64,000 nt of DNA, from positions 14,126,501 through 14,190,500 of the forward strand of contig NC_135367.1 in the NCBI RefSeq assembly GCF_051622035.1, given 5' to 3'. This DNA comes from Arctopsyche grandis (lineage: Eukaryota > Arthropoda > Insecta > Trichoptera > Hydropsychidae). Numbering within the stretch: position 1 is the first letter of the stretch; each line of letters opens with the position of its first letter. The position numbers and the translations under genes are program-made. A model generated the notes under the pieces. The model was given only the letters and a program-made list of their open reading frames with translations, had not been told where the DNA came from and made no database searches. Shown piece after piece: positions 3,326-60,910 of this stretch.

Positions 3326-6118
3326 ATGGAATGCCGACTTTGCTTGGTTCCAGAGCCAGCGATCTCCATTTGGGGCACTTCCGAATCGCTAGAGATACTT
3401 ATTTCTAGCTGTTGTCAGCTTCAGGTCAGTAGCATTGTTATTTAATTGTAGCAATTGTTAGTAAATTAATAGTTTCATAATTAATACGATAGAATGTGGG
3501 AATTTTTTTTTCTAAAATAAGATACTATTCTGAAGTCGTGCGTTAGGTTTTTAAGCATTTTGGTGTATTTTATATGAAATGAAGTGCATATATATATATA
3601 TGTATGTATGTATGTACAATTTTCGTTTGCTGTCACCAATTTGAATGCGAGTGAATTGTTGTGGGAGAGATGTCGATTTGGAAGAACCCCTTTGCTGAAG
3701 CCAAAAATTGTATGCTATGATCCCTTGAGTGATTATCGATTTGATTATAGTCAAGTTGAAATTACATATATAGTCGGTTTAGTGGCTGAAAGCTTGGCTG
3801 TTTTAAAAAAAATTGGCTGTTTTAACCTAATAATGCAACTCGGTAGATCTTAACACGCTCTGTTTGAAAAAAACAAGCCGATTTATATTCGTTTTTTTTT
3901 GTTAACCCTTTGCCCGCGGCAATAAATATAGCGAACAAGCCCTGTACGCGGCACCTTTTTCGCGAATTTGGCAATCGAGTTTTCGATACAGATTTTAATA
4001 TTTTCCTCAAGTAACCAGATATGTTAATTAACACATAAAGTATTATTTTAAACAATAAAATACATAATATATTTCGTAGTTTTGGCTTAATTGTCAAATA
4101 ATCATTCTTCACACAATTGAGACGTATCGTCGCCATTGTTCAACAGACGTGACGTCACATAAACGAGGTTTCATTATGGTTCCACAAAAAACTAATTTTG
4201 ACTGGTATATATTCATTGTAAGCAAATTGAATAGATGGCATTCAACTCTCAGTAATATATTCAACCAATTTTGAACATTAAAACAGTTCAAATAGGCACA
4301 TATAAGGCTCAAAATCCCGTGCAAAGTTCAGAAATTCTATGGAAGACAGCCGCGCCACAGACTTGTCGCCTAAAGCTTCCATAGAAGACGGCTGCGGGCA
4401 AACGGTTAATTAAGTTAGTTATGTCTTCGCTTGCTACTGTAAAAACACTTGGAATACATAAATGATTAACACATTTAATGTAATGGTTACTTTAATGAAT
4501 AATGATTTAGGTCACAAAATAGAAAGCTTCAAACATCTTGATTTTCGAAAAAGTCGATTTTGTCAGAACGAGAATTTTCGACTTAAAGCTTTTTGCAACT
4601 TAGCCGACGATTTGTATTGTATTGAAGAATGAAATAGTTCTTAAAAAATCTTAAAACATAAATATAAATGAAATAGAACAAAAACTTATAATTGATATTT
4701 CTGTATATGTATTATTATAGGTTGAAATAGATGATGGACTGCCAAATAGAATATGCGCACTGTGCAAATCTAAACTAGAATTGTTTAACCGGTTTAAACA
4801 TGCTTGTGAACAGTCTGATAAAATTCTGAGAGAAAGATTAACCGAGAAAGTACATATTAAAATTGAAGAAACCATTCTCCCCGATGAAGAGTGGACAAAC
4901 TACAGCAATAGTTCGTCGCCTTTTAATATTTACGATGTTAACTGTGGAAGTGAAAAACACATTAACACTGTCGACACCAATGAAGTTTTGATTCGAAATA
5001 TTAAAATTGAGGATGTGAAACCAAATCTAAGTGAATTTTCTTTCATAAAATTAGAGAAAAACGATGAAAAAGTTGCTGCTGAGGTAAAATCTTAAACTAT
5101 TTAAAAGATGAAATCAAATTTAATATTATATGTACAATGTTAATTGTGTATTTTTTAGAATGAATCAGGAGCATATTCCGACACATACGATATGCCGCTA
5201 ACTTTAAATACTCGCGAGACATTTAAATGTGATATTTGTTCTGAGATATTCCTCGAAGAAACACATTTTAAGAATCATTTAAAACATCACCGCAAGAACT
5301 TTAAATGCGATCTTTGTGGAAAAATATTTCTACGGAAGTATGTCTTAAAAAACCACATACAATCATGTAGTTTATCTAAAAAGAACAATACATTTTCTGG
5401 AGAAAAAGGTAGCGCCCAAGTAGAGATACGATTCAAATGTGAAATTTGTTCCATATTTTTCCCCCAAAAGTTTTCATATATGCGGCATATGCTCTTTCAT
5501 GGAAAAGAAAAGCCATTTAAATGTGACATTTGTTCTAAATCCTTTACCCTTAAACATCATTTAGAACGACACATTAACACTCACAGTACTGAAAAGCCAT
5601 ATGCTTGCGAGACCTGCGGCAAGGCATTCGGCACTAAATACAGTTTAGACTTACACATTAAAATCCACATTAGAAATGAAAACCTCGAATGCGAAATGTG
5701 TTCGAAAAGCTTCCACCTTAAACGTTCGTATGATCATCATATGAAAATTCACGCCGGTGAAAAGCAGTATAATTGTGATGTATGCAATCGTTCTTTTTAC
5801 CGGAAATGCGATTTGCAAAATCATGCGAAAATGCACTCTGAAAGCAGAACGCACGAATGTGATATATGTACGAGAGTTTTCGATTACAAATATAAGCTGA
5901 AAAATCACATGAAAATCCACAGCGATGTGAGGTTGTTGCACAAATGCGAGATTTGTTCGAAAATGTTCGCCTCCAAATACACTCTTGGAAGACACATAGA
6001 CACTCACACTGGAAATAAAACACACGTGTGTGAAATTTGCCACTGTGCGTTCTTTCAAAAGTCTAATTTACAAAAGCATATGAAAGTGCACTCGAAAGAA
6101 AAAACCGTAAAAATTTAA
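3326..6118 (+). CDS. ZAD-C2H2 zinc-finger transcription factor, three exons, 473 aa
   Basis: Predicted exons: 3326-3424 (33 codons), 4721-5083 (121 codons), 5159-6118 (319 codons plus TAA). All introns are GT-AG, phase 0 (donor GTCAGT at 3425, acceptor AG at 4719-4720; donor GTAAAA at 5084, acceptor AG at 5157-5158). Exons 1-2 encode a ZAD: Cys3 and Cys6 of MECRLC, the tryptophan motif ISIWG, then the second pair C45-x2-C48 after DDGLP; the ZAD ends in a helix-rich stretch (KILRERL). An acidic linker leads to ten finger units, about residues 176-466; nine are C2H2 and the second ends in Cys instead of the last His. ZADs mediate homodimerisation in insect zinc-finger regulators, so this is probably a nuclear sequence-specific DNA-binding protein; its target cannot be inferred. 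Intron 1 contains a piggyBac-like MITE. Confidence 0.9.
3902..4409. mobile_element. piggyBac-like MITE, 508 bp, in intron 1 of the first ZAD gene
   Basis: Both ends carry TTAA (3902-3905 and 4406-4409), the piggyBac target duplication. Next come matching termini CCCTTTGCCCGCGGC (left) and the complement of CCGTTTGCCCGCAGC (right). CCYTTTG-type ends are typical of piggyBac relatives. There is no transposase; the ORFs inside are short. It lies within an intron and so need not harm the host gene. Confidence 0.75.
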
Positions 6119-8094: not shown

Positions 8095-10874
8095 ATGACG
8101 CTACCACCTACCCAACGAGTACAGCCTGAACGACCCTATCGTCCGAGAAAGAGACGGCTGTCTTGCTTTATTGTACCTGATCAACTGAGCCCCCCTGTTA
8201 ACGTGGGTGAATGTTGTCGCTTATGTCTGGGTCCTGAGCCACCGGTTCCAATCTGGTGCAATACGAAACCTTTAGTTTCGAAAATTTGGAGATGTTGTCA
8301 GCAGCAGGCTAGTATATATTAAAATAGCCACAAAAATTTATTACATTTGGTAACAATAAACATAATAGTAAACCATTGCTCACATGATTATATTATAATA
8401 AATTTATGATTCAATAAGTCAGTGTGGATTATTTTAACGTTTGGCTTTTAGGTTGAAAAAGACGATGGTTTGCCTGACAGAATATGTACAGAATGCGAAT
8501 CCAAATTGGAATCGTTCAATAAATTTAAAGCGACTTGTGAAATATCTGAGAATTTTTTAAGGAAGAGACAACCGCAAAATGAAAAAAATAAAATAGAAGA
8601 GGTTAAATTGCCGAAAGTAAACAGTCTTAGTAAAGAAAAAACAAAATTTGACGATGAAAATTTGTCAATAATACCATCAGAGAGAAGTCATATTGATAAG
8701 GTATTTTTTTTAAGTAGAAAAATATATTAAATTTTCAAATGTACGTACATACTTTTTTATTGTGCTTGTTGACTGTATTGCACATGTTTTTAATACGGTG
8801 AAGATTTGAACTTGATTTATCGGTAATAATATATAATACATACATATTTGTTAATGACTTATCTACTGCCTTTACAGTTGCGTCAAAGGTATCCAGCAAT
8901 TTTATAAATGATCTGTGGATGAATTTGGAGACAATTAATAAAACATATTAGAATTGTGAAGTAATGTAAATAATTGAAGCTATATAAATAATTTTACACT
9001 ATAAGAACAAGAACTATAAAGGTGGGGTGGGGCATAAAATATCTTGTGGGACAAATAAAATAATTTATTAATCAAGCTCTAACTTTCAATAAAGCACAAT
9101 AATGATAATACAGTAGAACCTCGATTATCCAGATTGCTAAAAACAAACACAAATTTTACGATTTTGCTGCTTTGAAATGCATAACATAAAAATTCTAAAA
9201 TAAGAAGGAGAAATGAGTCAGTAGTGTTCAAACTTCAATACTCAAAGGACGTTTGTTTCTTATAAAATCCGAAACTTGATCGGGATTTAAATATTTATTT
9301 TTAATTATTATTGGTAATCCAATATGGAAAAGAAAACGAGTTTTATTATCATTAAAAGACAAATTATGTAGATAAAAGCAATGCTTTAAAAATTGGTGTC
9401 TTAGGACGTTTAATGTCAAATAAATATGGTGTTGGAACATCAACGATCTCGGATATTAAAAAAACAAAGTGAAAAAGTTATGAAGTTTACTGATTCTTTG
9501 AAGTCAGAAGATGGAAGCTCAGGGAGTAAGATTATGAAAAAATCAGGAAATGAAGAAGTCAAAGAGTGTATTTTTATGTGGTTCATCCAAAAGCGATCGT
9601 CTGGATTGCCAATATCTGGTATATTATTGTATGATAGGTATTCGTGATTTGGCAGCTTCAAAAAGAACAGCTAACTTAAAGCAAAAATCCATAATTAAAT
9701 TTCTTAAAAAAGAATAATTTACTATTGATCTTCATGTAAATGTAGACAAATAAAAATTGTTCATACTGAATGTACACGTCTTATCCTGTCAATTGTGATT
9801 ATTTCGATTATCCGGATTTTTAATTATCCGGACTACTTTCATACCCAATTAGTCCGGATAATCAAGGTTCTACTGTATGTATGTACATTAATTGTTTCGT
9901 CATCATATATATGTATATATATATGTTTTTTTTAGGAAAATATATCGCCAGTTTGTCCAGAGACTATACATGAGAATGAAGAGATGTTTTACAAATGTGA
10001 TTTTTGTGAAAAAAAATTTAACGATAAATGTCTGTTGCAATATCATATCACGATTTTGCATACTAAGTTTATTGTAGAAAAGAAATCGACAGAAAAACCA
10101 AATGAAAAGAGATTACACAAATGCGAAAATTGTTCGGATACATTTGAAAGCCAGTGGCAATTTGCTAATCATATGCTTGATGTGCATTATAAAGATGGAA
10201 AACCAATCAAATGCCACCTTTGCACACACCGCTTTTTTACCGAATATCAATTGAAACTACACCTTGAAGTACATGCAAAACGCAAACGCTACACATGCAA
10301 AATATGTCAGAAATTGTTTATTTATAGGGATGAACTTAAATCGCATATGTTTCTACACTTGAAAAAAAAGAAAAAGTACAAATGTCAAATATGTTCGAAG
10401 GCACAATACACTGAAAGTCACAATTTGGGAGCTAATAATAAATTTGAAATCGACAAATGCGACCATTGTTCTGAGACTTTCCTCCGCGTGATCGATGAGC
10501 AACGTGACAACCAACATCAAGCTGGTTTCAAGCCCTATGTGTGTAGCATTTGCTCGAGAGCATTCGTGCGTCATCGAAATCTTCAGCGGCATGAAAAAAT
10601 ACATATCAATAGTAAACAGTACAAATGCGACATTTGCTCAGAAGAGTTTCTTCTTAAAAGGAATATTCGAAGCCACATGCTGTCTCACATGAGTAATAAG
10701 TCTCACAAGTGCGATGTATGCTCTTCAGTCTTCCGTTCTGGCAGCCAATTGAAAAAGCACATGAAAGATCACTTACGTTCGAAAGATCACAAATGTGAAA
10801 TATGTGATAAAGCTTTCTATCGTAAACATGACTTAATGAAACATTTGAAGATTCATGCTGGTTTGGATGTATAA
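8095..10874 (+). CDS. ZAD-C2H2 zinc-finger protein with degenerate central fingers, three exons, 466 aa
   Basis: Predicted exons: 8095-8307 (71 codons), 8452-8700 (83 codons), 9936-10874 (312 codons plus TAA); all junctions phase 0. Unlike its neighbours it has a roughly 40-residue basic N-terminal extension before the ZAD pair C41-x2-C44; the second pair is C83-x2-C86 after DDGLPDR. The first donor reads CAG|GCTAGT, so intron 1 would be a GC-AG intron at exactly the position where the sister genes use GTCAGT. Exon 3 encodes ten finger positions (about residues 172-462). Positions 5 and 6 keep Cys-x2-Cys but lack a normal His-x3-5-His, so eight are probably functional. Likely a nuclear DNA-binding protein. 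Intron 2 contains a Tigger/pogo relic. The gene is a tandem-duplicate relative of the ZAD genes on either side. Confidence 0.86.
9111..9875 (+). mobile_element. Tigger/pogo-type Tc1-mariner relic, 765 bp
   Basis: Termini CAGTAGAACCTCGATTATCC and its inverted counterpart (ending GGTTCTACTG at 9875) are flanked by TA on both sides, the expected target duplication. Around 9390-9650 on the plus strand lie remnants of the transposase N-terminal CENP-B-like region: GVGTSTISDIKK in one frame, then after a frameshift KVMKFTDSLKSEDGSS and FIQKRSSGLPISG. The DDE catalytic core is missing, so this is an internally deleted, dead copy. It lies in intron 2 of the second ZAD gene. Confidence 0.85.
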
Positions 10875-13132: not shown

Positions 13133-14169
13133 GACCATTGTGGCATAACAGGAATTCCTAAAGCGCCACAATGGTCAAAAAATATAACACAAAAAAAACA
13201 AAATAACAATTAAACATAAATTAATACATAACGAAAATAATATACTAATCAATTACACATAAAAAAAAAATAAAAAAATACATTTGAACATAAACATAAA
13301 TACATCCATACATAAACATAGCATTTAATAATAACAGCATTTAATAATAAATAGCATTTAATAATAACAGATAAAGTAAAAATATCAAATAAATAATATA
13401 GCATAAGGAATGCCTTGCACCTACAGCCAGTTCCAATAAATATGTAAGAAACAACTACAAATACAAAACATCCCTGTAAGGCCCAAATTGAAGAGAATTA
13501 ATCAAAATTTCACTCATAAATCACAATCAATCATGAAAACAATGATGAGCGCAGACTACCAGATAAATGGGTTAGAGTAATTTCCGACAATTTACGCTCA
13601 CTAAGGTGGAAAATATCACATTCAGTCTCGGCAGCAACGATTTCATTAAGAAGTCGAATAGCTCTTGGAATAGGAGCCATTCGAAAAAGGACTGTGCGGG
13701 CAGGAGGTACAGCCATCAAATAATGATATCTACCACGCACATAGTGATTAGAGATATAAAGTCCCAACTGCTCCAGCAACAACGAACATGACGTATTACC
13801 ACGTAAGAGCTGGAGAACGAAACGAATTAATGAAAAGTTTCTCCGAAGTTCAAGGGAATTATACCCAAGCATGCCCAAAAGAAAATGAGTAGGGTAGAGA
13901 TATGGGTAATACCCATATTCTTTCCTATATAGGAAACGAAGAAATGCTTTTTGCACTCTCTCAATCATCAGAGAGTAATTTGCTTCATGCGGATTCCACA
14001 CAATCGCATTATACTCTAGCTTACTTCTCACAAGCGAATTGAAAAGCAAGCGAGAAGACAAAGGATTGGAGAATAATCTTGCATATCTCAAGACAAATCC
14101 AAGTCGACGAAAGGAAACATCAGCGATTTTCTTGATATGGTTGTGAAAGGTGAATAATAAATGCATCAC
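13133..14169 (-). pseudogene. non-LTR retrotransposon 3' end (LINE copy B), ORF2 C-terminal region
   Basis: The minus strand from 14169 to 13531 encodes 212 residues of the reverse-transcriptase thumb and downstream region without a stop. Motifs such as LGFVLRYARLFSNPL, LVRSKLEYNAIVWNP and MIERVQKAFLRFLYRK are typical of jockey/CR1-group ORF2 C-termini. The endonuclease and RT palm are absent (5' truncation near 14170). An A-rich 3' UTR follows, and a 12-bp perfect inverted repeat GACCATTGTGGC...GCCACAATGGTC lies at 13133-13176. This is the best preserved LINE copy in the window. Confidence 0.87.
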
Positions 14170-15090
14170 TAAATATACATTGAGAATTAGAAAAAAAACA
14201 TTTCTTAATTTTATGCATTTAAAACTGAAATTTTTAAAAACGTAAAGGAGGTTTGTAAAAATAAAAACGATGCAGTATTCAGATTTTTAAAAAAGGCTAC
14301 ATAATTGTTTCAAGATTAAAAATTCAGAATAATATTATAATTGAGATTTTTACATTTCCCTCTACAAAAATATCAAAAACATATTTTCAGTTTCGCAGTT
14401 CTAATTTTAAAACGTGCACAAAGCTCCAGTCTTGTAATTGGCGACCCTGTTTAGTCGGTTCCGTGTTGTCGTCGATCGTGGCCGATCCGACAAATGTCGG
14501 AATATCGGAATCGGATCAGATTAAAAACGTCTATTTGTAATCTGTGAATTGTAAATGGACGTTTGATCCGATATTTGACAATTTGACGCGTCCGACAATC
14601 TGACACTTCGTCGGACCGATAAATCGCTCACTTGTGCACTGAAGCCAATTCATAGAAATCTGTCAGATTCCGATGAATTAATACACAATGCACAAGCTTA
14701 AGTACGATACGGGGGTACTAATCAAACTTGTGCAAAACAAACCAAGTATTTGGGACAGAAAATCTATTGAATATAAAGATAAAACACCAATAGAAAAATT
14801 AATCAATTAATGAATTAAATAAATTTTCAATAGATGGCGCTAAATACCCAGAGACTTGAAACTTTGGTAGCAAACAGTATATATAGAATTTTTTCTTTTG
14901 TTATTATATTCGTACATTGTTGGCAGTGTTTTAGTTGTGACGTACGTATGTATGTTGAATCGAAACGAATATTATAGTACGGCGAGCGTTATCTTACACA
15001 TACACACAGAATAGCGATATTATACATACCTGTATGACAAACATTACATTAAAAATCTGATTCATTTGCAAATATTTATTTATTTATAGT
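14170..15090. other. intergenic, no gene recognised
   Basis: AT-rich spacer. Around 14450-14640 the short motifs GATCCGA and TCCGACAA recur in both orientations, perhaps remains of an old foldback element, but no boundaries can be drawn. Confidence 0.4.
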
Positions 15091-15645: not shown

Positions 15646-15808
15646 AATGAAATGATAACTACATATATGGAGGTAAATGAAAATGAAAAGCACTTTCACA
15701 GGCAGTGTACATATGTAGATGAATAGAGACTAAAACAGTAGGATAATATAACTCGCGATGTAGGTTATAGCTACAAAACACAATTTGGAACTAAATAAAA
15801 TTGGTTAT

Positions 15809-15933
15809 GGCTATTTGCAGGTACCATATCTGCAAATTATTGGCTATTTGCAGGTACTATATCTGCGAATTATTGGCTATTTGCAGGTACTATATCTGCG
15901 AATTATTGGCTATTTGCAGGTACTATATCTGCG
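15809..15933. repeat. 33-bp tandem repeat, about four units
   Basis: The unit GGCTATTTGCAGGTACTATA plus TCTGCGAATTATT is repeated head to tail with only a few changes. It consists of the terminal sequence of the surrounding inverted-repeat element, so it arose by amplification of that element's end. Confidence 0.85.
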
Positions 15934-16010
15934 ACAGGCGCAAAGTCTTCTGCGCATGCGCGTGAACTGTCACTGTCAGCGTGTTTACTGTTAAAATTTT
16001 GTTTTAAACC

Positions 16011-16169
16011 TGTGGCGGCTCGCTATACGACATGGTCGAGTTTGGTCACCTTCCTGCGAGTGGGGACCAACTCGATTGTGTTCGAAGTTAGCTACCTCAC
16101 TCTGCCTTCAGCTTTCATAAATAAAACACGTGCATTAACATGCCAGTCGTCTCATTCGTTCATCCCCCA
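16011..16169. mobile_element. solo LTR (family 2, copy 1), 159 bp
   Basis: Begins TGTGGCGGCTCGC and ends CATCCCCCA (TG...CA), with TAAACC on both sides (16005-16010 and 16170-16175). It contains an AATAAA near its middle in plus orientation. It is about 80 percent alike, by eye, to copy 2 at 16246-16403, which has a different flanking duplication; so these are two independent insertions. Confidence 0.78.
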
Positions 16170-16245
16170 TAAACCTCTTAAAATTTAGTTTGAACTCGTA
16201 AAGTGACGCAGAGTAAAAAATATAATCCAAATTAGTTAATATTAT

Positions 16246-16403
16246 TGTGGCGGCTCGCTTATACGACATGGTCGAGTTTGGTTGCCTTCCTGCGAGTGGG
16301 GACCAACCCGGCTGGGTTCGGAGAGCCACTACCACTCTACCTTTAGCTGTCATATAATAAACACGTGCATTAACATGCCAGTCGTCTCATTCGTTCATCC
16401 CCA
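16246..16403. mobile_element. solo LTR (family 2, copy 2), 158 bp
   Basis: Begins TGTGGCGGCTCGC and ends CATCCCCA, flanked by TATTAT on both sides (16240-16245 and 16404-16409). It shares the blocks CGACATGGTCGAGTTTGG and CACGTGCATTAACATGCCAG with copy 1. The very short LTR and 6-bp duplication do not point to a known family that I can name. Confidence 0.78.
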
Positions 16404-16696
16404 TATTATTAATTGTTAGAAGATTATTATCATATACAACGTATAATACCTACATACAAGTACAAGCCGCGAACTAGCTAAATGATATAAATATATTATA
16501 ATAACGTGCGAAATTTATTTGCCTCATGTGTAATGAACGATTGATTAAACAAGTCTAGCATACATTAAATGTAAGAAATTATAATCGGATTATAAGTTCA
16601 CGCGCATGCGCAGAAGGCTTTGTGCCTGTCACAGATATAGTACCTGCAAATAGTCAATAATTCGCAGATATAGTACCTGCAAATAGCCACAACCAA

Positions 16697-17060
16697 TAAC
16701 ATTAGGAAAGAGTGGTTATTCTAGCCATCAATATAGATTTGCTAATATATAACTTAGCGCTGATAGTATAATATAGTATCATCAATGATGAGTTTTCGTA
16801 TGCCAGATTTAGATTTTTATTTTAGATAATTATATTACACCTAGCTGAGAATTTTAATCACGGTATTGGAAGAAATAATAAGCCATAGGTTTTATTAGCA
16901 TCAAACATTAATAATGCCTGCCAACTCAAAACAAATCATGCGAATAGTTAGTTTCTTTTTGCAATAAATGCTAGTTGGCAGCTGCTGTTAAACAAACAAC
17001 CACGATTGGCAACCATGCTCAATATTCGCTGTCACTTGTCATTGATTGTTGTTTGCTATC
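16697..17060. promoter_or_regulatory. 5' flank of the ZAD-integrase gene
   Basis: This is the only sequence between the inverted-repeat element and the start codon, so it must hold the promoter if there is no upstream exon. Just before the ATG (17025-17060) it contains CGCTGTCACTTGTCATTGATTG. A similar string, CACTTTCGCTGCTGATACTTGTCAG, lies 25-60 bases before the first ZAD gene's ATG, consistent with a shared ancestral promoter. An out-of-frame ATG occurs at about 17014. Core promoter motifs cannot be assigned confidently. Confidence 0.4.
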
Positions 17061-20000
17061 ATGGAATGTCGTTTATGTCTCAGTCCTCAACCTCCAGTTT
17101 CCATTTGGGGAGCTCCAGAATCATTAGTGCTACGAATTTGGACCTGTTGTCACCTCCGAGTCAGTCCCATCACTAATATTAACATATCTCGCTTATATAC
17201 ATATGTATATACTTGAATAATTAACCTAGTTATACAGTATTATCTGAATGCTGGAAGTTGACCCTTAAATTTTTCATTAGAATTACAATTTTACAGATAG
17301 AAAAGGATGACGGTTTGCCAGATAATATATGTTCATCGTGTGAATCCAAACTGAATATGTTTTCCCAATTCAAAAGCACCTGCGAAAAAACAGAAAAAAT
17401 ATTACGAGAAAGATTGACTACAGGTGTAGATATTAAAATAGAAGAAATAGACACGATATTAGAGGACGAAGATTGGAGAAATGACAGTTGTAATAACAAT
17501 AGTTCGTCTAGACTCAGTTATCATAGTAACACAAATGGAGAACAATCTAACGTAAACAACACAAATCTACAACGCCAAGATGTATCGAAAAGTATTTCAA
17601 ATAAAAATTTGGCTGTGGAGGATAAAAAACGATGCGATTTTCTGGAAATCAAGAGAGACGTAGTCAAAGATTCTCCAGAGGTAAATTTATATGTAAAATA
17701 TATGTAATAACAGTCTCTGACTTGATTTAGTGTTAGTATAATAAATGTATACAGGTTTTTCATTTGAAATTGACCCTTTTTCAATGTCAATTTGAAATGA
17801 AAAAGGGTAAATTTTGTAGGAATCCCGATTTATCCCGATCAAATCGAACCATCTATTCCTACAGAGGATAGATTCCCACACTCAACCAGCGATCTCCCGA
17901 AATAACCACTTATACACTTCGTGAAGGTGTTCTTCACACCCAGTCACCATGTGTTTTAGACAGGTTCGTCTGTGTCCAAATGGTTGAAATACGGCTGTAT
18001 GTTTGAATAATGTTTTATTATAAATTTTAGTATACAAGTGTATAAGTGGTTATTTCGGGAGATCGCTGGTTGAGTGTGGAAATCTATCAACCGTCAGAAT
18101 ACATGGTTCGATTTGATTGGGACAAATCGGGATTCCTACAATTTGAAATGAAAAAGGGTCAATTTGGAATGAAAAACCTATATTAAAAATCATTTATTTG
18201 TATATGTATAATTATTTTTTATTTATGTCGATATTAATCCTATGTATGTATGTACATATTAGGGTTTCTGATTTCCCGGACTTTTTCAATTCCCGGGACA
18301 CGGGACGGAGCCCGGATTGTTCACGGGATTCCGGGAATCCCGGGACACATGTAAAAAACCATTTATTTTCAATTTAATATATTTTGTATTAATAAAAAAA
18401 TTATTTATCTATTTACAAAATATAAAAAAAGTAAATGATACATAATATATCTATTAACTGGAAAAAGTGTAATTATAAAATTAAACTTATTTAAAGTAGC
18501 TTCTTAAGAATATTAAAATATTTAAATGAGAATCCGAAAGCCTATTTCTAGATTTGGTACAAAAATTTCCAGCAATGGAAAAAACTTCAGTTTCGGTCGA
18601 AGTTGGTTTTATTGTTAAAAGGGACGAAAATAATTTTTTTAAATCATCGGTTTTTTCTCCTATGAGCATGTATATTTTAATTACTAGCCTCTTCTTACTT
18701 CACTAACGATTTTTTCTTTTTTAAAGTCGAGGTTATTTTTATTTACATTATTTTGTATATCTTTTCTTTGATAACTCCTTATTTAATTCTTCATTCATCG
18801 TCAAAAACACAATTGTTTCATCTTCATCCGAATCTAAAAGAGTTTCTTCCATTGTGGAATCGTCAATACAAGAAGGATATACTCGCTTCATAATCTTCCA
18901 TGCTAAACAACAAACCTTTGAGAATATTTACGATTCTTTGTGTATTTGATTTATTATTTCCCTTCGTGCAGTCGTGAAAATGTTGTATATTTTTAGGATT
19001 TTTTTTAATCCAATTCCCGGGATTCGAGATAAAAATTCCCAGGACACGGGACAACAAAAATTCCGTGAATTCCCGGGAATGTCTGTCCCGGGTCGACCCG
19101 GGCCAGAAACCCTAGTACATATATATCGAGGGAAATTAAAAATCTTTTAACCGCTTAGACGCCCAGCCGACGCGCTGAGCGTATAATAGATACGGCTGTT
19201 TGCGCCTTAAGGCGCTTTGGGCAGCTAAGCGGTTAATAAAAACATTTATATTGAAATTTTTTAATAAATAAAGTATGTATATACTTACTAATAATTTAAT
19301 GTAATTTTAATGACATATTTACATATATATATATAATGTTTTTGTTATATTGTTTCAGAAAGCTATAATGAGAGGAAAATTTAATAAAACACTAGATAAA
19401 ATTGTAGCCACAAAAAAACAAAATAACGTTTACCTGAAAAAAGACCAATATGAACAAATACTGAAAGACGTTGCTACGGCTAAATTAAAACGACATTCCA
19501 AAACACCGTTAGACTATCGCCGTTTGCAACGATACGACATTAAAACAGTCGGCAATGAGAATAGATTATTTTTCCCAGTTCCCGCCGATGGCAAAGGCAC
19601 CATAAAATATTTTGTAACCATCGACGAAACGTTCGATATCATTAACGACATCCACCTAAGCACTGGTCACGGTGGTCGCAACAGAATCCTCAAATATTTA
19701 TGTGATAAATATAAAAATATCACAACTGAAGCGGTCATGTTATATTTGGGTCTGTGCAAAACGTGTCAACAGAGAACGAAAGGCAAGCGGAGAGGTGTAG
19801 TCGAAAAGGCTATCGTCAACGAATTGAATTCTCGGTGTCAAATTGACATCATCGACTTTCACAGTCAACCAGATAATGACTATAATTATATATTAAGCTA
19901 TCAAGATCATATTACGAAGTTTTTAATATTGCGTCCTCTGAAAACTAATGGGGCCTCGGAAGTGGCTGAAAATTTGCTTAGTATTTTTACACTATTAGGA

Positions 20001-20708
20001 GCTCCTTCAATACTGCAGAGTGATAATGGTAGAGAGTTCGTCAATGACATTATTACCGAGCTTAGGAATCTTTGGGACGGTATTAAGATCGTTCACGGTG
20101 AGATAAAAGGGTTTCAAAAACAAAAGTCGACAGAACGGTCGAATCATGATGTTAAAAAAATGCTTACTATGTGGCAGGTTGCAAACAAATCCAAAGAATG
20201 GTCACAAGGTCTCAAATTCATTCAGATGATGAAGAATCACGCTTATCATGACGAAATACAACAGACACCTTACGAAGCTTTATTTGGAACAAAAATGAAA
20301 TTGGGATTGAAAAGTTCGAATTTACCAGCGGACGCCATTACTGATATGCAATCAGAAGAAGAATTAACTAAACTAATCGAAATGACAGCTGCTATTGAAT
20401 CAGCTGACGGACAGTCTGCATTAGAATTGACAATACCTTGTGATATACCTGCTACAATCCCCGTAGAGACGACAGAAGATAGTGCTAGTGATAGGGCGAA
20501 TATTACCGAAACAAATTTATTGTTTCGCGATATTTCAGAACATTGCGATGTGGACATGTCGGATTTTGAGTTAGAGTATGAAAATTCAACAGCACCTCGT
20601 ATGGAATCCTTGTCAGGCAAGAGACAGTTGCTTGAGAAACGTGGGCAAATTCAACCAGAGAAAATATGCAAGCTATCGAAGTCTTGCTTGAGTTATAATG
20701 GGGTTTAA
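17061..20708 (+). CDS. ZAD-integrase fusion protein (predicted), three exons, 610 aa
   Basis: Predicted exons: 17061-17159 (33 codons), 17297-17680 (128 codons), 19359-20708 (449 codons plus TAA); all GT-AG, phase 0 (donors GTCAGT, GTAAAT; acceptors TTACAG, TTTCAG). Exons 1-2 are a ZAD with C3-x2-C6, SIWG and C45-x2-C48, nearly alike in length and phase to the neighbouring ZAD genes. Instead of fingers, exon 3 encodes a KRBA2/SCAND3-type integrase: a His/Cys zinc-binding region (H260, H265, C294, C297) and an rve core with D324 (CQIDIIDF), D383 (LQSDNGREF) and E420 (STERSN), a D,D(36)E triad. An acidic C-terminal tail without chromodomain follows. Catalytic residues look intact and no stop interrupts the 449-codon exon, although the intron before it is full of dead transposons. 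Likely a domesticated nuclear DNA-binding protein; residual catalytic activity is unknown. The alternative, that exon 3 is an unrelated integrase relic not spliced to the ZAD, needs transcript data. Confidence 0.75.
17752..18180. mobile_element. TA-flanked foldback element in intron 2 of the ZAD-integrase gene
   Basis: Outer inverted ends (A)CAGGTTTTTCATTTGAAATT and ATAGGTTTTTCATTCCAAATT are bordered by TA. Inside, several further blocks recur in inverted order: GACCCTTTTTCA, TAGGAATCCCGATTT, ATCAAATCGAACC and ACTCAACCAGCGATCTCCCG with AATAACCACTTATACAC. Nearly the whole 430 bp can therefore fold on itself. No coding sequence. Confidence 0.72.
18260..19114 (-). mobile_element. hAT transposon relic, 855 bp, with transposase C-terminal remnant
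   Basis: Ends TAGGGTTTCTG and its inverse CAGAAACCCTA are flanked by the identical octamer GTACATAT (18252-18259 and 19115-19122), a perfect hAT duplication. Just inside, both ends carry CCCGGGACACGGGAC-type blocks. On the minus strand (18669-18487) the frame reads TSTETEVFSIAGNFCTKSRN then RLSDSHLNILIFLRS, the conserved hAT C-terminal dimerisation region. The catalytic part is gone. Inserted in intron 2 of the ZAD-integrase gene; the perfect duplication suggests relative youth. Confidence 0.88.
19147..19236. mobile_element. short piggyBac-like MITE, 90 bp
   Basis: TTAA at both ends is followed by CCGCTTAGACGCCCAG and, inverted, CCGCTTAGCTGCCCAAAG. TTAA duplication and CC-starting ends fit piggyBac-type elements. 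It lies 122 bases before the integrase exon of the fusion gene. Confidence 0.68.
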
Positions 20709-21467
20709 AGTTAACAGACTCGGTTTGATTCTACATATTTATGTGCCCTACACAGTTTGGCGCATTAGATATTCGTCGAAATGGCTGTTGGAGAAATGGC
20801 GAAATGAATTCCTGCTCGTGCAAATTATTGGCATTTGTCGTGAAGTATAATTTGCAGCGAGTAAATGGCTACAGATCAGTTATACGAATGATATTTTTAT
20901 TTGGGAATCTATTCAGTTGTACATATATAACGAATTTTTTGTAAGATATTGTTTTAGGCTCCCAAAAAATGATTGATACTTTTATATATCAAAATAAGAG
21001 GTGAAATGTAGAAATTATAATACATTTTGGAATTTAAACCAGTGAATTTATAGCATAAAATGGGAGAATGCAAATTTACTAGGATTTCTGATTTTGGAAG
21101 TAATAAATAAAATTTATATTATATACAAATATTTTATTAATTATGTTGTGATCTCAAAATTGTTGTTTTATTAATTTGAAATTTTATTTTTTTGTTAATA
21201 TGTATTTAATAAATACCATGTTAACATGTATTGAATAAATAATGTAATATAATTAAGACATTGTTTATCAATTTTTAATATATTTTTAATGCATTTATTT
21301 ATAGTATATTAAATTATGTACATACATATGTATGTATGTTATAAATGGAAGTAAACATTCAAAAGATTCAATACATTTTCCGACCAATGAAATTTTTTTT
21401 AATTTTCCTTTAATATTGATATATCATGTATGCGTAGATCGATTCTAGTGGATATACATATGTACAT
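20709..21467. other. 3' flank of the ZAD-integrase gene
   Basis: The 67-codon ORF at 20741-20944 directly follows the gene but resembles no domain I know. It could be a decayed piece of the original integrase C-terminus or simple 3' UTR. A candidate AATAAA is at 21102-21107. Beyond about 20950 the sequence is very AT-rich and featureless. Confidence 0.4.
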
Positions 21468-21720
21468 AGTGGACAGGGTGAAGCGATTGAAATGCCAATG
21501 AGCGGGTCACGTAGATAGACGAAAGATGGAAAAAAAGAAGTGCTTGAATGATACCCGAGAGAATGTGAAAGGGTGAAAGGAAGACAGGTAGGCGAAATCA
21601 GAAAATGTGTGGGGTGAGATGGATGAGAGTTGCGTGAAAAACAAATGGAAGAGTGTTGGAGAGGCCTTCATACAGTAGTCTACCATGAACAGTTGTAAAT
21701 ATTGATGATGATATACATAT
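21468..21720 (+). pseudogene. RTE-like LINE 3' fragment (decayed)
   Basis: In broken frames the plus strand reads VDRVKRLKC, then AGHV.RR, and toward the end NKWKSVGEAFIQ. These recall the extreme C-terminus of RTE-group reverse transcriptases (GHxAR...W...LGEAF). A TGATGATGAT tract follows, typical of RTE-like 3' ends. Several stops show it is dead. The assignment rests on short motifs. Confidence 0.55.
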
Positions 21721-22250
21721 TTTATATGGTATATATTTTTTTTAACATAAAAAATATTGATTATTTTAATATTTAAGAAAAAAAAAGTTTATCCACCATC
21801 TACTTTCTTAGATAGTTTCAAAACCTAATAAGTATTGTATTATATACATATATACAAATAGGGTTGGTTCTGAATTTTTAAGGACCAAACATGCCCTATC
21901 ACTAATCAGAACGATATGAGGACATTGGCTCCCTCCTCGAAACGCGAGGGTAAAACAAAACGTGAGTCACCACCCCCTTTCCAACACTCAACCCCTACGA
22001 TTGTCAATGTGAGGGACGTGCCCTTTATATTTATGCATTTGCACATAAGTTGTTGATTTTACATTTTATCAAAAGTACCAATTTGCACATCCATTACCGC
22101 CACACATTTGAAGAATGAACCTTCATAAACCATGTCTCATATAAGCTATATATACATTTTTTTTGGGTATTTGGCAATACTTTTGTTTGGGTATTCCTAA
22201 ATAGACGAAGAATTTTCCTCAAAAATTTACTTATAGTTAGTTCCCTACTG
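21721..22250. other. intergenic, no gene recognised
   Basis: AT-rich spacer; no coding sequence or recognised element. Confidence 0.45.
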
Positions 22251-22254
22251 AGTT

Positions 22255-22480
22255 TTTGATTTTTAAATGCTTTTTATTATTACTAAATTATGTTCACAAT
22301 ACATCTTATATCTATTTTAATAGCTACTGATCTACTGATCATTTTCTATTTCACAATTTTAAATCAATTTTGTTAGTAATCATAGTATTATATTATTATA
22401 ATGTAAATATGTACAGCGTAATAGGAAAAAGAGCTCCAAAACCTATTTACAATTCTTTCACCACTGAGCTAAAGAAGTAT
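22255..22480. repeat. dispersed repeat, copy 2
   Basis: Second copy of the repeat at 7520-7800, same strand, sharing the string CTACTGATCTACTGATC and the GGAAAAAGAGCTC block. Class unknown. Confidence 0.7.
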
Positions 22481-22559
22481 TAGTGAACTAGTAAAAAGTT
22501 TTTTGGTAATTGTTTAAGTAAAAGAAAAATATCTCTTGTGAAACATGTCTTATCTATTT

Positions 22560-22820
22560 ATTTAATTACTATCTGAACCCCGGCATGTGTTCCCGTTCCC
22601 GTTCTCGTTCCCGTTCCCGTTCTCGCTCCCGTTCCCATATGTCGGAAAAACGCAGGTAGCGAACACATTTGAAATTATTGCGTTGCAATGACACTCATTC
22701 CCGTTTTTTTTTTACAGTAATCTTCCCGGACATGCACACAACAAATCCTGAAAGTTTCATCATAATCGGTTCAGTGGTTTAGCAGCCTATTCGAGACACA
22801 CACAGACATTAATTTTTATA
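22560..22820. repeat. CCCGTT simple array plus transposon-like tail
   Basis: About eight six-base units (CCCGTT, with CTCGTT and CTCCCGTT variants) at 22587-22638 are followed by a stretch containing CATAATCGGTTCAGTGGTTTAG and GAGACACACACAGACATT. The sequence 'ATCGGTTCAGTGGTTT' followed by ACA-rich DNA is a frequent 3' part of insect repeats. No boundaries could be defined, so this is a likely mobile-element fragment only. Confidence 0.45.
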
Positions 22821-23249
22821 TACATTTAAGTACATTGTATATGTATGTATTTAAATCTCGGCTAATGAAAATGTTTTAGAAACGGTAAAAATATGCGTTC
22901 CATAAGTACTAAAGTGCGATAGAGATGGAAGAAAAGCACCTTCAGCAAAAAAGTATTAGTGCGAAAGAGACAACAATAGTGACTTCGCATTTGCGCATGT
23001 GCCCTTAACAGATAACTGACAGGGATGCGAACGCATCGATAAAGCTTATTCATTTATATATTATATTTTTAATTAATTCATTTAAAAATTAAATACGCAT
23101 TATTATTATAGGAAATTTCAATTTGAACAAACAGAAATCGATATTTGCCAACTTGCGCGTGTAATAATATTTCGGATTAAAATCCGACAATATTTTAAAT
23201 GCAACTCTATTTTTAATTTAAATTTATTTTATTTATAAATAGTGCCGAT

Positions 23250-23569
23250 TGCGATGCATGTTGCATATGTGTGCACGCCGACCGTCTTATCGGCACCCCT
23301 GCATCGGGGAAATGCAGGAGGAAGTACTTTCACTAACTGGACGCGCATAACCTCTCAGCGGGCGCCATTGGCGAGCGTCGCGACGCTGTTTTTCCGCGAA
23401 AATTCGCCGGATTTTCCACAATAAGCTGGTTTTTCGTCACGTCTGTCGACGTCGACGAGGACACGGGAAACGAGGACGACGGATGCTGTCGTGGCTGTCG
23501 TGACGGAAGCGGAAGTGGCGCTTCGGCGGCACCAAAACAAACCCACCCCGCCAAATCTGCTCACAATAG
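23250..23569 (+). promoter_or_regulatory. CpG-containing candidate promoter and 5' UTR exon of the rhomboid gene
   Basis: This is the first markedly GC-rich, CpG-containing block after the ZAD cluster and ends in AATAG|GTACGTAAAT, a strong donor site at 23570. It has no coding ORF that looks real. Together with the acceptor at 26200 it would give a spliced 5' UTR for the gene whose coding starts at 26635. This is inference; the exon could equally belong to another transcript. Confidence 0.4.
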
Positions 23570-23599
23570 GTACGTAAATAAAATTATTATATCAACCGA

Positions 23600-24236
23600 A
23601 ATTCATATTCGTCACCCGCTTGATTATTGCGAAATATTAAAATTCGGTATTAATTTTCTCGAGGATTGTCTCGAGCGTTCACCCTCGTCGTTAGGGGGTG
23701 AGCAGGTGATTGACCATTGGAACACATCCACTTGTTTGCACACAGCCCCAAAACGCGAACGAGTATTTATATTTTATAAATCTAATCTTATTTATGTTTA
23801 CGAGAATTTATATATTTCACAACATTGTGAAATTGTAAATATTTCCGCTCAGTTTAAATTTTTATTGAACATTGTTACATATGTAGTTTTTATATTTACA
23901 TCGGATGCTATTATTTTTAAAATGTAACAATTATATACCTACCTTTAATATGTGTCTCTTTTTACAAGGCTTTTATAAAGATTATTTATATACTAAAATT
24001 GGAATTTTTGCCCAAATCAAACAAAGTTTGTAAAACGAATAATGCATTTTATTTATTATTTCAACAATTATAATATTTAATATAATAGTTTTCATAGATA
24101 TACTCTCATAGAAAGTGTGTTTATTTCGTGATCGTGGATAAGTTTTGATAGACGTCATTATTGACACGTGCTTATTGATATTGGGCATACATAAAAGTAT
24201 GATTCGTCAAATAATTTACGGTTTAAATATTGTAAA
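23600..24236. other. non-coding, nothing recognised
   Basis: AT-rich sequence after the candidate 5' exon; presumed first intron. No coding or repeat structure seen. Confidence 0.4.
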
Positions 24237-24290
24237 CTAGTGGTTTTATCCGGCTTCGCTCGGTATTTGTAATATAAACAGCTTAAACAT
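24237..24290 (-). mobile_element. Helitron 3' end (minus strand)
   Basis: On the minus strand the sequence reads ACCGAGCGAAGCCGGATAAAACCACTAG followed by T. A GC-rich hairpin (CCG..GCGAAGCCGG) a few bases before CTAG, with T after it, is the standard Helitron 3' terminus. The element extends rightwards to an unknown 5' end. It is similar to the Helitron-like end at about 61020-61046. Confidence 0.6.
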
Positions 24291-24722
24291 TCCAAAACAA
24301 TCTAATAGTAAACATTCATTTTTTTAAATTAAATTTATATGAAAAAAAAAACGATATTGATATTGTCATCATAGAAACTTTGATTTGTTTTCAATGCTCC
24401 CAGACCAAACCTTACGTAATTAAATAGTTACAAAGTCTCTTTCGAAATTATACATATATTAGATATGAAACTAGATTTTTAAATACATTGTAATCCTCCA
24501 TTCATTAATTATTGACTTTCAAAACTTGTACTTTGAAGCAAATCGAATTTGAACATGAAGTGAAGTGAAATTAAATTTGAATTTTAAATTTTTTCAAATA
24601 CATATTATTTTTTTATTTCCCACATCTTTTTTACAAGGTATCTATCTTAGACTTTGACTCACTATCTTTAGAAGGGATTATTGCCATTTTCACGTACTTC
24701 TTTGAAGTATTAAACCGAATTA

Positions 24723-25049
24723 TTGACAACCCTTCGATTTTATCGGAGCTTAAATTTTGGGCTTAAATGTGGTCGTGCTTTGTGTCAGCGTCGACTTTTC
24801 CAACTAATTGTTACGAGAACATCTGATTTCGGAAACTCGTCTCTTGTAAAGGCTTTCCGGTTCCTTAATGTGATAGGTGAGAAATTGGACCTGGTTGATT
24901 GTCATATTGATGACTGGTCAGTTTCATGAGATTCAACACGAGTCTATTTGAATGACATGAATGATTGCTAATTTTATTTCTGTTGTTGTTTCCTTTTTTT
25001 TGTAAGACTGGTGTGACGCATTGGAGCAACTTGTCAAGTTACATTGGTC
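24723..25049 (+). pseudogene. LINE 3' end (copy D), ORF2 C-terminus plus 3' hairpin
   Basis: The plus-strand frame 24723-24929 reads CGRALCQRRLFQLIVTRTSD then FGNSSLVKAFRFLNVIGEKL. It aligns with the C-terminus of LINE copy E (51527-51892 minus: CGRALRHHLLFQPFPAKTSA, FNNSSLVETIQFLTVIDG). A short 3' UTR leads to GACTGGTGTGAC...GTTACATTGGTC at 25006-25049, the same imperfect hairpin as in other copies with G-T wobble-compatible changes. It is 5'-truncated. Confidence 0.78.
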
Positions 25050-25069
25050 GCTAACTTATTATTATTATT

Positions 25070-26200
25070 TATCTATTTTTTATGTATTTATTATAATAAT
25101 AAATACATCAAATAAATAAATTAATGAGTTTGTACAAGAAATGGTTTATTCAACGTTTCGGTATATTTAACATTTCGGTTTGTCAAAATATTAAACGATT
25201 TCTTTCTATAGTTACACAATGTTCATCTGTATATTTTTGTTACGAAAATTTAAACTTTGGTTTGATTAGTTTACGCGTGTAACTACGAATATGTAAATTC
25301 AGTTTACCTATTTCTCTTCATTTGTTAACATCAATTCTTCTGTAGTATCAAATTGGGTTGGAATATTCAGTAATTTTTTGGCTTTAGGCAATTGTCTATA
25401 ATATGTTATGATTATTAACAATATTGAACACTCAGGTAAGAACGACCATACTTTTTTAAACTTTCTTTTCTAAACATTGATATTTTTATATTTGAAAAGA
25501 CGTTAGTTTGAAATTGTATAATTTATATCGTATTGAAAACAAATGAATTTTATTTATTCACTTTTTCACGTTTGCAACAAAATGGCCACTCGACATATCA
25601 AGACAATCGTTAAAATGCGATTAAAACAATTTAATCATCTATATGTAAGTCCATAAAGAAAATGCTTAAATTGTACTAAATTACTAATTAATTCAATGAT
25701 GTTTAAACACAAAATGCAACAAATTTCATGTTAGTGTTTAAACATCGTTAACGCTTAAATTTAAAGCTACGTCTTTGCGATTAGAACTTTTATAGACTTT
25801 CCTGGCGAAAAACGCAATGTCTATTAAGCCAAATTGTGTATTAATTTTGTTTGAATTGGCGTTTAATTTATAATTCAACATTGGTCAATCATTTGCAAAC
25901 AACCTTTTAATTGGGTCGAGGAAATTTTTTATACTAACTACGTTATTAGATTAATGTGCCTACTTTTTATTACACAAAGTTTCAAAACTAATGTTTTCTT
26001 TATCGTTTTCGTCGCCTTTCTGTATACATTCAAAATTAAAGGTCGTTATCAGTTGACCTACCTATAAAACGTAATTAAAACCGATTAGTCACGCACCATA
26101 TAACGTTGCAATTTTTACTTGGTAATTTTTTCGCTTTATTAGACACCCCTGCATTAAAGTTACAATTTAAATGTTGAAAATGTTGAATTTTTTGTTTCAG
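25070..26200. other. AT-rich intronic or upstream DNA, nothing recognised
   Basis: No ORF, RNA gene or defined element. A good acceptor (TTTTTTGTTTCAG) ends at 26200. Confidence 0.45.
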
Positions 26201-26634
26201 AAAATCGCCGCGAGATGGCACACCCAAAACGCCATACAGTTCGGTGACAGTTGTCACCTTTCGCCGCTAGAGCACCGGCGCTTTGTTCGAGAGAAATTAT
26301 TATTTTTAATTTAGCCAAGCCGCGCACCGCTTAATTAATTTTATTTAAAATTTGAATAAAAATAAAAATGAAATAAATAAAAACGGTTGATCGGTAACCA
26401 TGCAACGGAAGTGCCTAATTGCAATCGATTGTTCAAATAAATAAAACAAAATCAATAATTAATAAATCAGAACGCTCTCAGTGCCTTTACGTTGTATAAA
26501 TATACATATATTATAATAAATCTACAATAATCTCTCGCGTATACGTCAATTTAAATAGATAATCCTTTGTGTTCATTCGTGTGTGATTTATATGGAAGTT
26601 TTGCGGCAGCGGTTGTCAAGTTGGGGTGCGCAAG

Positions 26635-51422: not shown

Positions 51423-51892
51423 GACCAGTGTGACCTGACAGGTTGCCCCAAAGCGTCACACCAGTTTTACAAAACAAAAGAAAGAAAATAACAAAATAAA
51501 AACAATAAAAATTTCAATCATTCATCTCATTCAAATAGTCTCGTGTTGAGTCTCAAGAAACTAACCAGCTCATCAACATGACAATTGAACAGGTCTAAAT
51601 GCCCATCAATCACAGTAAGGAACTGGATAGTCTCTACAAGAGACGAGTTATTGAAAGCAGACGTTTTCGCAGGAAAAGGTTGGAAAAGTAAATGATGACG
51701 CAAAGCTCTACCGCATTCAGGCGCCGAAAATTTAAATTCCAATAAAATCGAAAGGTTGTCGATTCTTCCCTTTAATACTCCAAATAAATATTTGGAAATG
51801 GCAATAATTCTTCTCGAAGATAGTGAGTCAAAGCCTAGCATACCTTGTAAAAAGGCATTATAAATATGTATATATGTATATGTATAGTCCAA
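51423..51892 (-). pseudogene. LINE 3' end (copy E), ORF2 C-terminus plus 3' hairpin
   Basis: The minus strand 51892-51527 encodes LQGMLGFDSLSSRRIIAISK, then CGRALRHHLLFQPFPAKTSA and the final VSFLRLNTRLFE, parallel to copies B and D. After an A-rich 3' UTR comes the hairpin 51423-51466 (ACTGGTGTGAC...GTCACACTGG with GCTTTGGGGCAACCTG inside). It is 5'-truncated near 51860. Confidence 0.8.
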
Positions 51893-52227
51893 TTGTGTAG
51901 TTTGTCCTCATATACAGTTCTTCATTTCACTTCTTACATTGATACCTTTATATTTATACTTAGAACATGTGGAAAGCATACAAGGGTACGAACATTTATT
52001 TTGTTGCTTATGCTAATTTTTATTTACTGGCCCTCAAAATAGTTTTAAATGTCAATCTAAATGATTAATTTGAAACTGAATTTTGATTCAATTGAAATGA
52101 ATTTATTATTTATTTTCAAATAATATAGTATAATATTTTTACTAATCAAATGATATTTATGGGTAGCATTATATTTATGGGTATGGGTAACTTTTTTCAA
52201 TTATTTTTTGTATAATGCAGGTTTTTT

Positions 52228-60000: not shown

Positions 60001-60114
60001 TGATTCGATTTTTTTTTTTCGATCCATAGGCGCCGATTTGTTTTTTTCGATTCAATGGATTCACCCCCGCGGGGGCGCAAGGCGAGTAGTTTCATGGGGC
60101 CCCGAAGGGGGCGC

Positions 60115-60465
60115 AGCTTTCATGGGGCGCAGCCTTATAGGGCGCAGCCTTATGGGGCGCTGCCTTATGGGGCGCAGCTTTCATGGAGCGCAGCCTTATG
60201 GGGCGCTGCCTTATGGGGCGCTGCCTTATGGGGCGCTGCCTTATGGGGCGCTGCCTTATGGGGCGCAGCCTTATGGGGCGCCGCCTTATGGAGCTCAGCC
60301 GCATGGGGCCCCGAAGGGGGCGCAGGGGGGGCGCTGCCTCATGGGGCGCAGCCCCATGGGGCCCCGAAGGGGGCGCAGCTTCATGGGGCCCCAAAGGGGG
60401 CGCAGCTTTATGGGGCGCAGCCTTATGGGGCGCAGCCTTATGGGGCGCAGCCTCATGGGGCGAAG
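60115..60465. repeat. 15-bp minisatellite (TTATGGGGCGCWGCC)
   Basis: The unit TTATGGGGCGCAGCC or TTATGGGGCGCTGCC is repeated about twenty times with interspersed GGGGCCCCGAAGGGGGCGCAG variants. Because 15 is a multiple of three, several frames stay open on both strands (Met-Gly-Arg-Ser/Cys-Leu and Tyr-Gly-Ala-Leu-Pro repeats). These ORFs are products of the repeat. Confidence 0.9.
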
Positions 60466-60910
60466 CCCTAAACGGCAACTAATCATGGGGGCGAAGCCCT
60501 AGACGGCATTTAATCATGGGGGCGCGGATGGGCGAAGCCCTAAAAGGCATTAACTAAGGGGGGCGAAGCCCTAGACGGCATTAAATCATGGGGGCGCGGA
60601 GGGGCGAAGCCCTAAAAGGCATAAACTAAGGGGGGCGAAGCCCTAAAAGGCAACTGATCATGGAGGCGAAGCCCTAGACGGCATTTAATCATGGGGGCGC
60701 GGAGGGGCGAAGCCCTAAAAGGCAACTGATCATTGGGGCGAAGCCCTAGACGGCATTTAATCATGGGGGCGCGGAGGGGCGAAGCCCTAAAAGGCATCAG
60801 CTAAGGGGGGCGAAGCCCTAAACGGCAATTCCTCATGGGGGCGTGGAGGGGCGAAGCCCTAGAAGGCAAAGGCTCAGGGGGGCGCCGAGGGCGAAGCCCT
60901 AGAAGGCAAA
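60466..60910. repeat. GGGCGAAGCCCTA minisatellite with higher-order period of about 70 bp
   Basis: The core GGCGAAGCCCTA(A/G)A(A/C)GGCA recurs about twelve times. Alternating spacers (TTTAATCATGGGGGCGCGGA versus TTAACTAAGG or ACTGATCATG) produce a higher-order unit of roughly 70 bp. GGGCTTCGCCC-like cores are self-complementary. Confidence 0.88.

Follow-up and report, generated by a model that had tools for sequence, protein, structure and literature searches.

The window analysed here, a stretch of 64,000 nucleotides from the caddisfly Arctopsyche grandis (Trichoptera, Hydropsychidae; contig NC_135367.1, 14,126,501 to 14,190,500), carries at 17061-20708 on the plus strand a gene in which two exons encoding a zinc-finger-associated domain (ZAD) are followed by an open exon encoding a KRBA2/SCAND3-type integrase. 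This fusion gene lies within a cluster of ZAD-C2H2 genes and consists of the following parts (slashes mark exon boundaries).

14834..14866, plus strand: alternative first exon, MALNTQRLETL, taken from the database protein P0001 (isoform X2)
17061..17159, plus strand: ZAD exon 1, MECRLC...CCHLR, 33 codons with the first Cys pair, phase-0 donor A/GTCAGT
17297..17680, plus strand: ZAD exon 2, second Cys pair ICSSC and linker, phase-0 donor GAG/GTAAAT
17681..19358, plus strand: intron 2, holding a miniature inverted-repeat transposable element (MITE)-like element at 17749-18183 and a hAT-like insertion at 18260-19114 (element types assigned by eye)
19359..20708, plus strand: integrase exon 3, 449 codons at 19359-20705, stop codon at 20706-20708, acceptor TTGTTTCAG/AAAGCTATAATG
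Within exon 3: an HHCC zinc-binding part, a core with D163, D222 and E259, an altered loop at residues 248-262, and an unmatched tail

Both CxxC pairs of the ZAD, MECRLC and ICSSC, are present, and the stop-to-stop frame of exon 2 scores 33.1 bits against the Pfam profile zf-AD (PF07776; cut-off 28), which places it in the ZAD family. Solved chains matching the ZAD are 7pok (2.4e-5) and 6fp5 (2.3e-4), both of which we take to be Drosophila ZADs. The junctions of the fusion gene are phase 0, and intron 2 is likewise phase 0 in both upstream ZAD-C2H2 genes (sites read by eye). The best protein match of exon 3 is P0001, a 588-residue NCBI/UniRef entry named "KRAB-A domain-containing protein 2-like isoform X2 [Arctopsyche grandis]", which is 100% identical across the integrase exon and carries the exact exon 2/exon 3 junction, E/KAIMRG. 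Lacking exon 1, it scores 26.5 against zf-AD, under the Pfam cut-off of 28. It is the only entry with PF07776 in the precomputed Pfam column among the 120 homologues listed for each integrase search (the best 120 of 180 for the single sequence and the best 120 of 235 for the alignment query). The protein search with the ZAD region listed three proteins of 145 candidates, namely P0001 and two A. grandis ZAD-C2H2 proteins; no database protein beginning with exon 1 was among the matches listed. An earlier note on this DNA had proposed that two ZAD exons, similar in phase to those of the flanking ZAD-C2H2 genes, are joined in phase to a 449-codon integrase exon and that the expected zinc-finger exon is absent. 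The splice sites and the P0001 junction bear out the joining, the phase of intron 2 in both upstream genes agrees with the proposed likeness, and neither a C2H2 pattern nor a convincing tblastn match was found downstream. On the plus strand of the window the strict C2H2 pattern has no match beyond 10794, and the gene thus does not have the finger array of the ZAD-C2H2 class. A hidden downstream finger exon was considered and rejected, tblastn with finger exons yielding nothing convincing at 20500-27000. At the level of the sequence, the predicted ZAD-integrase gene at 17061-20708 is thus confirmed.

The two insertions in intron 2 were also inspected. The hAT-like insertion (18252-19122) appears to be non-autonomous; its ends, TAGGGTTTCTG...CAGAAACCCTA, lie at 18260-18270 and 19104-19114 and are flanked on both sides by 8-bp duplications, GTACATAT. 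The MITE-like element at 17749-18183 ends in inverted repeats of 44 nt (84%) and contains a further inverted pair of 106 nt that is 92% complementary. At 15800-16720, downstream of the alternative first exon and upstream of exon 1, tandem units (GGTACTATATCTGCGAATTATTGGCTATTTGCA) are present with, by eye, inverted copies on the opposite side in a foldback-like arrangement; a dispersed repeat inside this region also occurs at the second ZAD-integrase locus described below (92% over 162 nt).

Integrase exon and related copies in the genome

Exon 3 scores 25.3 against the Pfam profile rve and 21.1 against Integrase_H2C2, both under the cut-offs; among six relatives scanned in the same way, none passed the rve cut-off and one passed that of H2C2. 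By phmmer, exon 3 belongs to a family of KRBA2-type homologues, with 180 proteins at E<=1e-3 and a best E of 1.6e-132 apart from the gene's own record. The named homologues among the matches listed are mostly KRBA2-like or SCAND3-like and come from many arthropods and other animals. The Protein Data Bank match of exon 3 is the integrase of prototype foamy virus (PFV; E 2.8e-14), an enzyme that contacts DNA. These matches sustain the assignment to the KRBA2/SCAND3 type made in the earlier note, as does the retention of D163, D222 and E259 the intact D,D(36)E triad that it had reported. Furthermore, exon 3 has kept 72 of the 82 columns that are at least 90% conserved across 115 aligned relatives (alignment A1, comprising 115 of the 119 listed relatives, with P0078, P0090, P0091 and P0093 excluded).

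Changes concentrate in the active-site loop around E259 (residues 248-262): of its 14 columns conserved at >=80%, 8 are altered, as compared to 16 of 116 outside the loop (p 0.0006 by one-sided Fisher test); at columns conserved at >=90% the corresponding numbers are 3 of 9 and 7 of 73 (p 0.075). The window loop departs from the family loop consensus, KPRHSQSQGSVERAN, while the triad itself is retained. For the KRBA2-type C-terminal domain (VRVRVPDVDRGR...) no convincing match was found downstream of exon 3, and the tail of the exon consists of unmatched sequence where this domain would stand. P0008 and P0016 have the domain, and the second ZAD-integrase locus retains a broken remnant of it; many of the listed relatives are short and may perhaps miss it, too. 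In an AlphaFold model the mean predicted local distance difference test score (pLDDT) is 81.9, 29 of the 35 leading ten-residue blocks reach at least 90, the block at the changed loop (251-260) has a value of 73, and most of the tail stays under 50. When 340 codons were evolved neutrally to 35% amino-acid change, a level chosen to suit the terminal branch of 0.45-0.49 and modelled by substitutions only, none of 500 runs remained free of stops (mean 7.1 stops). Frame and core of exon 3 thus appear to be conserved past the neutral expectation, with synonymous sites saturated relative to the paralogues.

In trees built with FastTree, exon 3 clusters with six Logan-derived proteins, P0002-P0006 and P0009 (local support 0.995-0.996). 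Three of these (P0005, P0006 and P0009, from Logan contigs) have lost catalytic residues and have whole-residue gaps at the third catalytic site within long open frames, which hints at further non-catalytic relatives.

The genome (475.7 Mb) was searched with the integrase exon and the best 94 of 461 candidates were scored, so that the counts given here are lower bounds. The window copy is the sole full-length match to exon 3 among the 94. Six other KRBA2-type loci were identified, all partial, truncated or broken (identity on contig C6 44%; C4 41%; C1 51% over 121 residues; C11 41% and 31%; a fragment on C13 39%). No second copy exceeds 51% identity in this search, and the several similar copies expected of a mobile element are thus not found; neither are the many near-identical dispersed integrase copies that the earlier note had named as speaking against its proposal, which were looked for genome-wide. 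The remaining genome matches, with identities of 30% or less, lie mostly in long open frames and were set aside as polyproteins of long terminal repeat elements, as judged from frame length. A query from another lineage, P0016, retrieved the same core loci again except for the C13 fragment, and its C-terminal half gave further, less strong matches on C2, C5, C6 and C7. Four frames of 285 residues on C2 (34296438, 31587896, 31895707 and 33518343) have equal or nearly equal scores and 30% identity to this half. Terminal inverted repeats around exon 3 were not recognised among the 25 longest of 68 inverted pairs. At the C4 locus (L022, C4:33690500-33700400, minus strand) a frame is open over 330 residues; its core has a 4-residue gap and its third catalytic site is altered. 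By eye, a short intron is preceded by what may be a small first exon with MQTSE at its end. L022 is maybe another domesticated integrase gene. Near five of the other KRBA2-type loci no ZAD or finger match was found within about 4-5 kb on either side (E<=1e-2).

Second ZAD-integrase locus and genomic surroundings

The remaining KRBA2-type locus, L021 on contig C6, has the same layout as the window locus.

L021, minus strand: ZAD exon 1 at 5959-5846, ZAD exon 2 at 5771-5538, integrase frame at 5338-4406, phase 0

The integrase frame is preceded by TTTTTTTAG/AAAATTCTA and is broken or truncated, with a frameshift and, in the C-terminal remnant, a stop. The ZAD of L021 is part of a 427-nt inverted repeat (82% DNA identity) shared with a neighbouring plus-strand ZAD-C2H2 gene; between these two ZADs, the nonsynonymous rate (dN) is 0.121 and the synonymous rate (dS) 0.363, a ratio of 0.33. 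The L021 integrase is sister to the C4 copy (support 1.0) in a clade distinct from the window integrase (local supports 0.996 and 0.992). Similarly, in a tree of 13 ZAD rows, two of which (P0121 and its locus) represent a single gene, the L021 ZAD groups among the six rows from C6. A split of 0.989 separates it from the window ZAD, whose group also holds two of the window's other ZADs, the gene of P0121 on C13, and P0122, which comes from a different contig. A former tree of seven ZADs that paired the window ZAD with one from another contig (0.793) is superseded by this analysis. As the integrases belong to different lineages and the ZADs to different groups, the integrases of the window and of L021 were probably acquired in two separate events.

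ZAD exons are numerous in this genome; from 989 candidates at least 150 were scored, and every one of these exceeded the cut-off. Even with 989 ZADs, the probability that two of the seven KRBA2-type loci lie within 2 kb downstream of ZAD exons is 9e-5, an estimate which assumes uniform placement and was computed after the result was known. In summary, the ZAD-integrase gene inside a ZAD-C2H2 cluster that the earlier note described holds, while the note had overlooked the loop changes, the absence of a C-terminal-domain match and the second locus.

The flanking genes of the cluster are the following.

3326..6118, plus strand: ZAD-C2H2 gene 1, exons at 3326-3424, 4721-5083 and 5159-6118, normal architecture, intron 2 phase 0
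8215..10874, plus strand: ZAD-C2H2 gene 2, exon 1 at about 8215-8310, exon 2 from 8452, finger exon at 9936-10874, intron 2 phase 0

Gene 2 may be altered, since in its exon 1 (8190-8330) the ATG is missing at the start position of its relatives (CCRLC for MECRLC) and the donor is GC. Elsewhere, the segments 13531-14286 (minus strand), 51527-51907 (minus strand) and L021:2673-3282 resemble, by eye, the C-terminal part of the reverse transcriptase of non-LTR retrotransposons; Pfam gave no match for the first and a weak unrelated match for the second. Overlapping frames on both strands at 59987-60502, with a short repeated unit (GRSLMGRS-type), are probably a simple-repeat artefact.

Origin of the gene and rival explanations

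We consider it reasonably probable that the fusion gene is a domesticated host gene that arose when an integrase was captured. In this reading, a KRBA2-type element would have deposited its integrase open reading frame downstream of both ZAD exons in a ZAD-C2H2 gene, the phase-0 acceptor a short distance before the integrase ATG would have allowed splicing of the ZAD exons to the integrase, and the zinc-finger exon would then have been lost. An acceptor-like site closely upstream of the integrase ATG occurs in the window and L021, by eye in L022, where the pattern missed it, and in another phase in L025. As a gauge of chance, 4868 ATGs were examined across the window and the other loci included; 4.4% of them have a phase-0 acceptor-like site that is open to them within 45 nt. 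It might be speculated that such a ready acceptor could make the reading frame of the element easy to capture.

ZADs are described as protein-protein interaction domains that do not bind DNA in PMC7655104. As the ZAD is an interaction domain and the integrase matches that of PFV, ZAD-mediated pairing and integrase-mediated DNA binding would be combined in one protein: the ZAD half would most likely dimerise or recruit partners, the HHCC and RNase-H-like parts of the integrase would most likely bind DNA, and the integrase may have replaced the fingers as the DNA-binding half. Catalysis would be reduced or absent. Since the core is largely conserved but loop and C-terminal domain show decay, the protein is probably a regulator or silencer rather than an active integrase; if expressed, it would bind DNA and recruit partners in this regulatory role.

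Several observations weigh against such a gene. P0001 opens with another first exon, by which the first half of the ZAD is missing from isoform X2, and, judged from its entry name, it looks like a computed gene model. No ZAD-integrase protein from another species is among the matches listed in the integrase and ZAD-region searches, and conservation of the fusion between species has therefore the rank of a candidate. The divergence of the window integrase at conserved columns is unusual, not extreme, 9 of the 115 aligned relatives diverging in a larger share of them, and the change of the loop is not unique to the fused gene, because at least four changes or gaps occur there in 16 of the 115, too. 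An intact triad makes enzymatic activity possible. The ratio dN/dS of exon 3 against its paralogues meets saturated synonymous sites, and part of the constraint on exon 3 may date from the transposon phase. Finally, no local neighbour stands out as clearly closest to the window ZAD, the supports being weak, which slightly lowers our confidence, and the frameshift and stop of L021 are as would be expected of a decaying insertion.

The last point leads to the first rival explanation, which we regard as unlikely: a transposon may have inserted beside or inside a decayed ZAD gene and its frame may not yet be broken, the joined model being a functionless product of annotation. L021 would then exemplify the same layout with a broken frame, the other KRBA2-type copies are partial or decayed, intron 2 hosts other insertions, and 10.6% of ATGs have an acceptor-like site if any phase is allowed, so that such sites are not rare. 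However, a recent insertion is unlikely because no other copy in the genome exceeds 51% identity, and yet the frame is intact. Likewise, both Cys pairs of the ZAD and the splice sites are present, most core residues have been kept while the changes concentrate in the loop near E259, and flanking terminal repeats were not recognised among the inverted pairs inspected. Even less probable is that, rather than two captures, a single old ZAD-integrase gene was duplicated, with copies now on C13 and C6. The common exon layout and phase, the similar start of the third exon (KAIM- and KILSKM-) and the lack of a clearly closest local neighbour of the window ZAD would agree with it, but the integrases fall into different supported clades, the ZAD groups are split, and the ZAD exons of L021 share their 82% DNA identity with the ZAD-C2H2 gene next to them. 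That a mobile element itself carries the ZAD, or has an active integrase and is still able to move, appears to be the least probable of these explanations: the intact D,D(36)E in the window, the ZAD upstream at two of seven KRBA2-type loci and the acceptors near the integrase ATG in L022 and L025 would fit, but the five other loci are without a ZAD match, the fused ZADs belong to different groups with that of L021 among its own C6 cluster, near-identical copies are absent from the genome search, the loop is changed and the C-terminal domain was not found downstream.

Beyond the single domesticated gene, one may tentatively propose, with somewhat less than even confidence, that caddisfly ZAD clusters repeatedly capture integrases, with at least two births in one genome, one of them lasting, its integrase re-tuned from cutting to binding. 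The window locus offers a specific case on which this can be tested, and L021, although broken, can be compared with it.

Comparison with known systems

In the literature on ZAD together with integrase or transposase, screened by titles and the starts of abstracts and mostly outside subscription papers, no ZAD-integrase protein is described. The main text of PMC12062965 contains neither 'zf-AD' nor 'ZAD', and that of an arthropod fusion survey, PMC13389597, neither 'ZAD' nor 'integrase'. The fusion gene shares its ZAD exons, their phases and the local cluster with insect ZAD-C2H2 genes and differs from these in that no zinc fingers were found. KRABINER and SETMAR resemble it in that a host regulatory domain is joined to a captured transposase; in contrast, they are tetrapod fusions with transposases of DNA transposons, whereas the caddisfly gene combines an insect ZAD with an integrase of retroviral type. 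These and other host-transposase fusions, together with a splicing mechanism, were reportedly described by Cosby et al. in 2021. Fusions of host regulatory domains with captured transposases are also treated in PMC12062965 and PMC8232201, the former including BTB-integrase fusions. In such proteins of the ZBTB11 type (BTB/POZ with an integrase-like HHCC), an integrase-derived part is retained in a host regulator, but there the zinc-binding part stands beside the BTB and finger arrays, whereas in the caddisfly gene HHCC and core occupy the position of the fingers.

If ZAD clusters capture transposase or integrase exons, the making of regulators from mobile elements would be a convergent route of insects and vertebrates. 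According to PMC3257199, KRBA2 and SCAND3 are rve-derived genes, SCAND3 being a fusion. In these vertebrate genes, joined to KRAB or SCAN, an integrase of the same family, as judged from the database names of the homologues, stands behind the N-terminal domain of a local zinc-finger family; the caddisfly gene differs from them by its arthropod ZAD, its altered catalytic loop and a tail that does not match the C-terminal domain.

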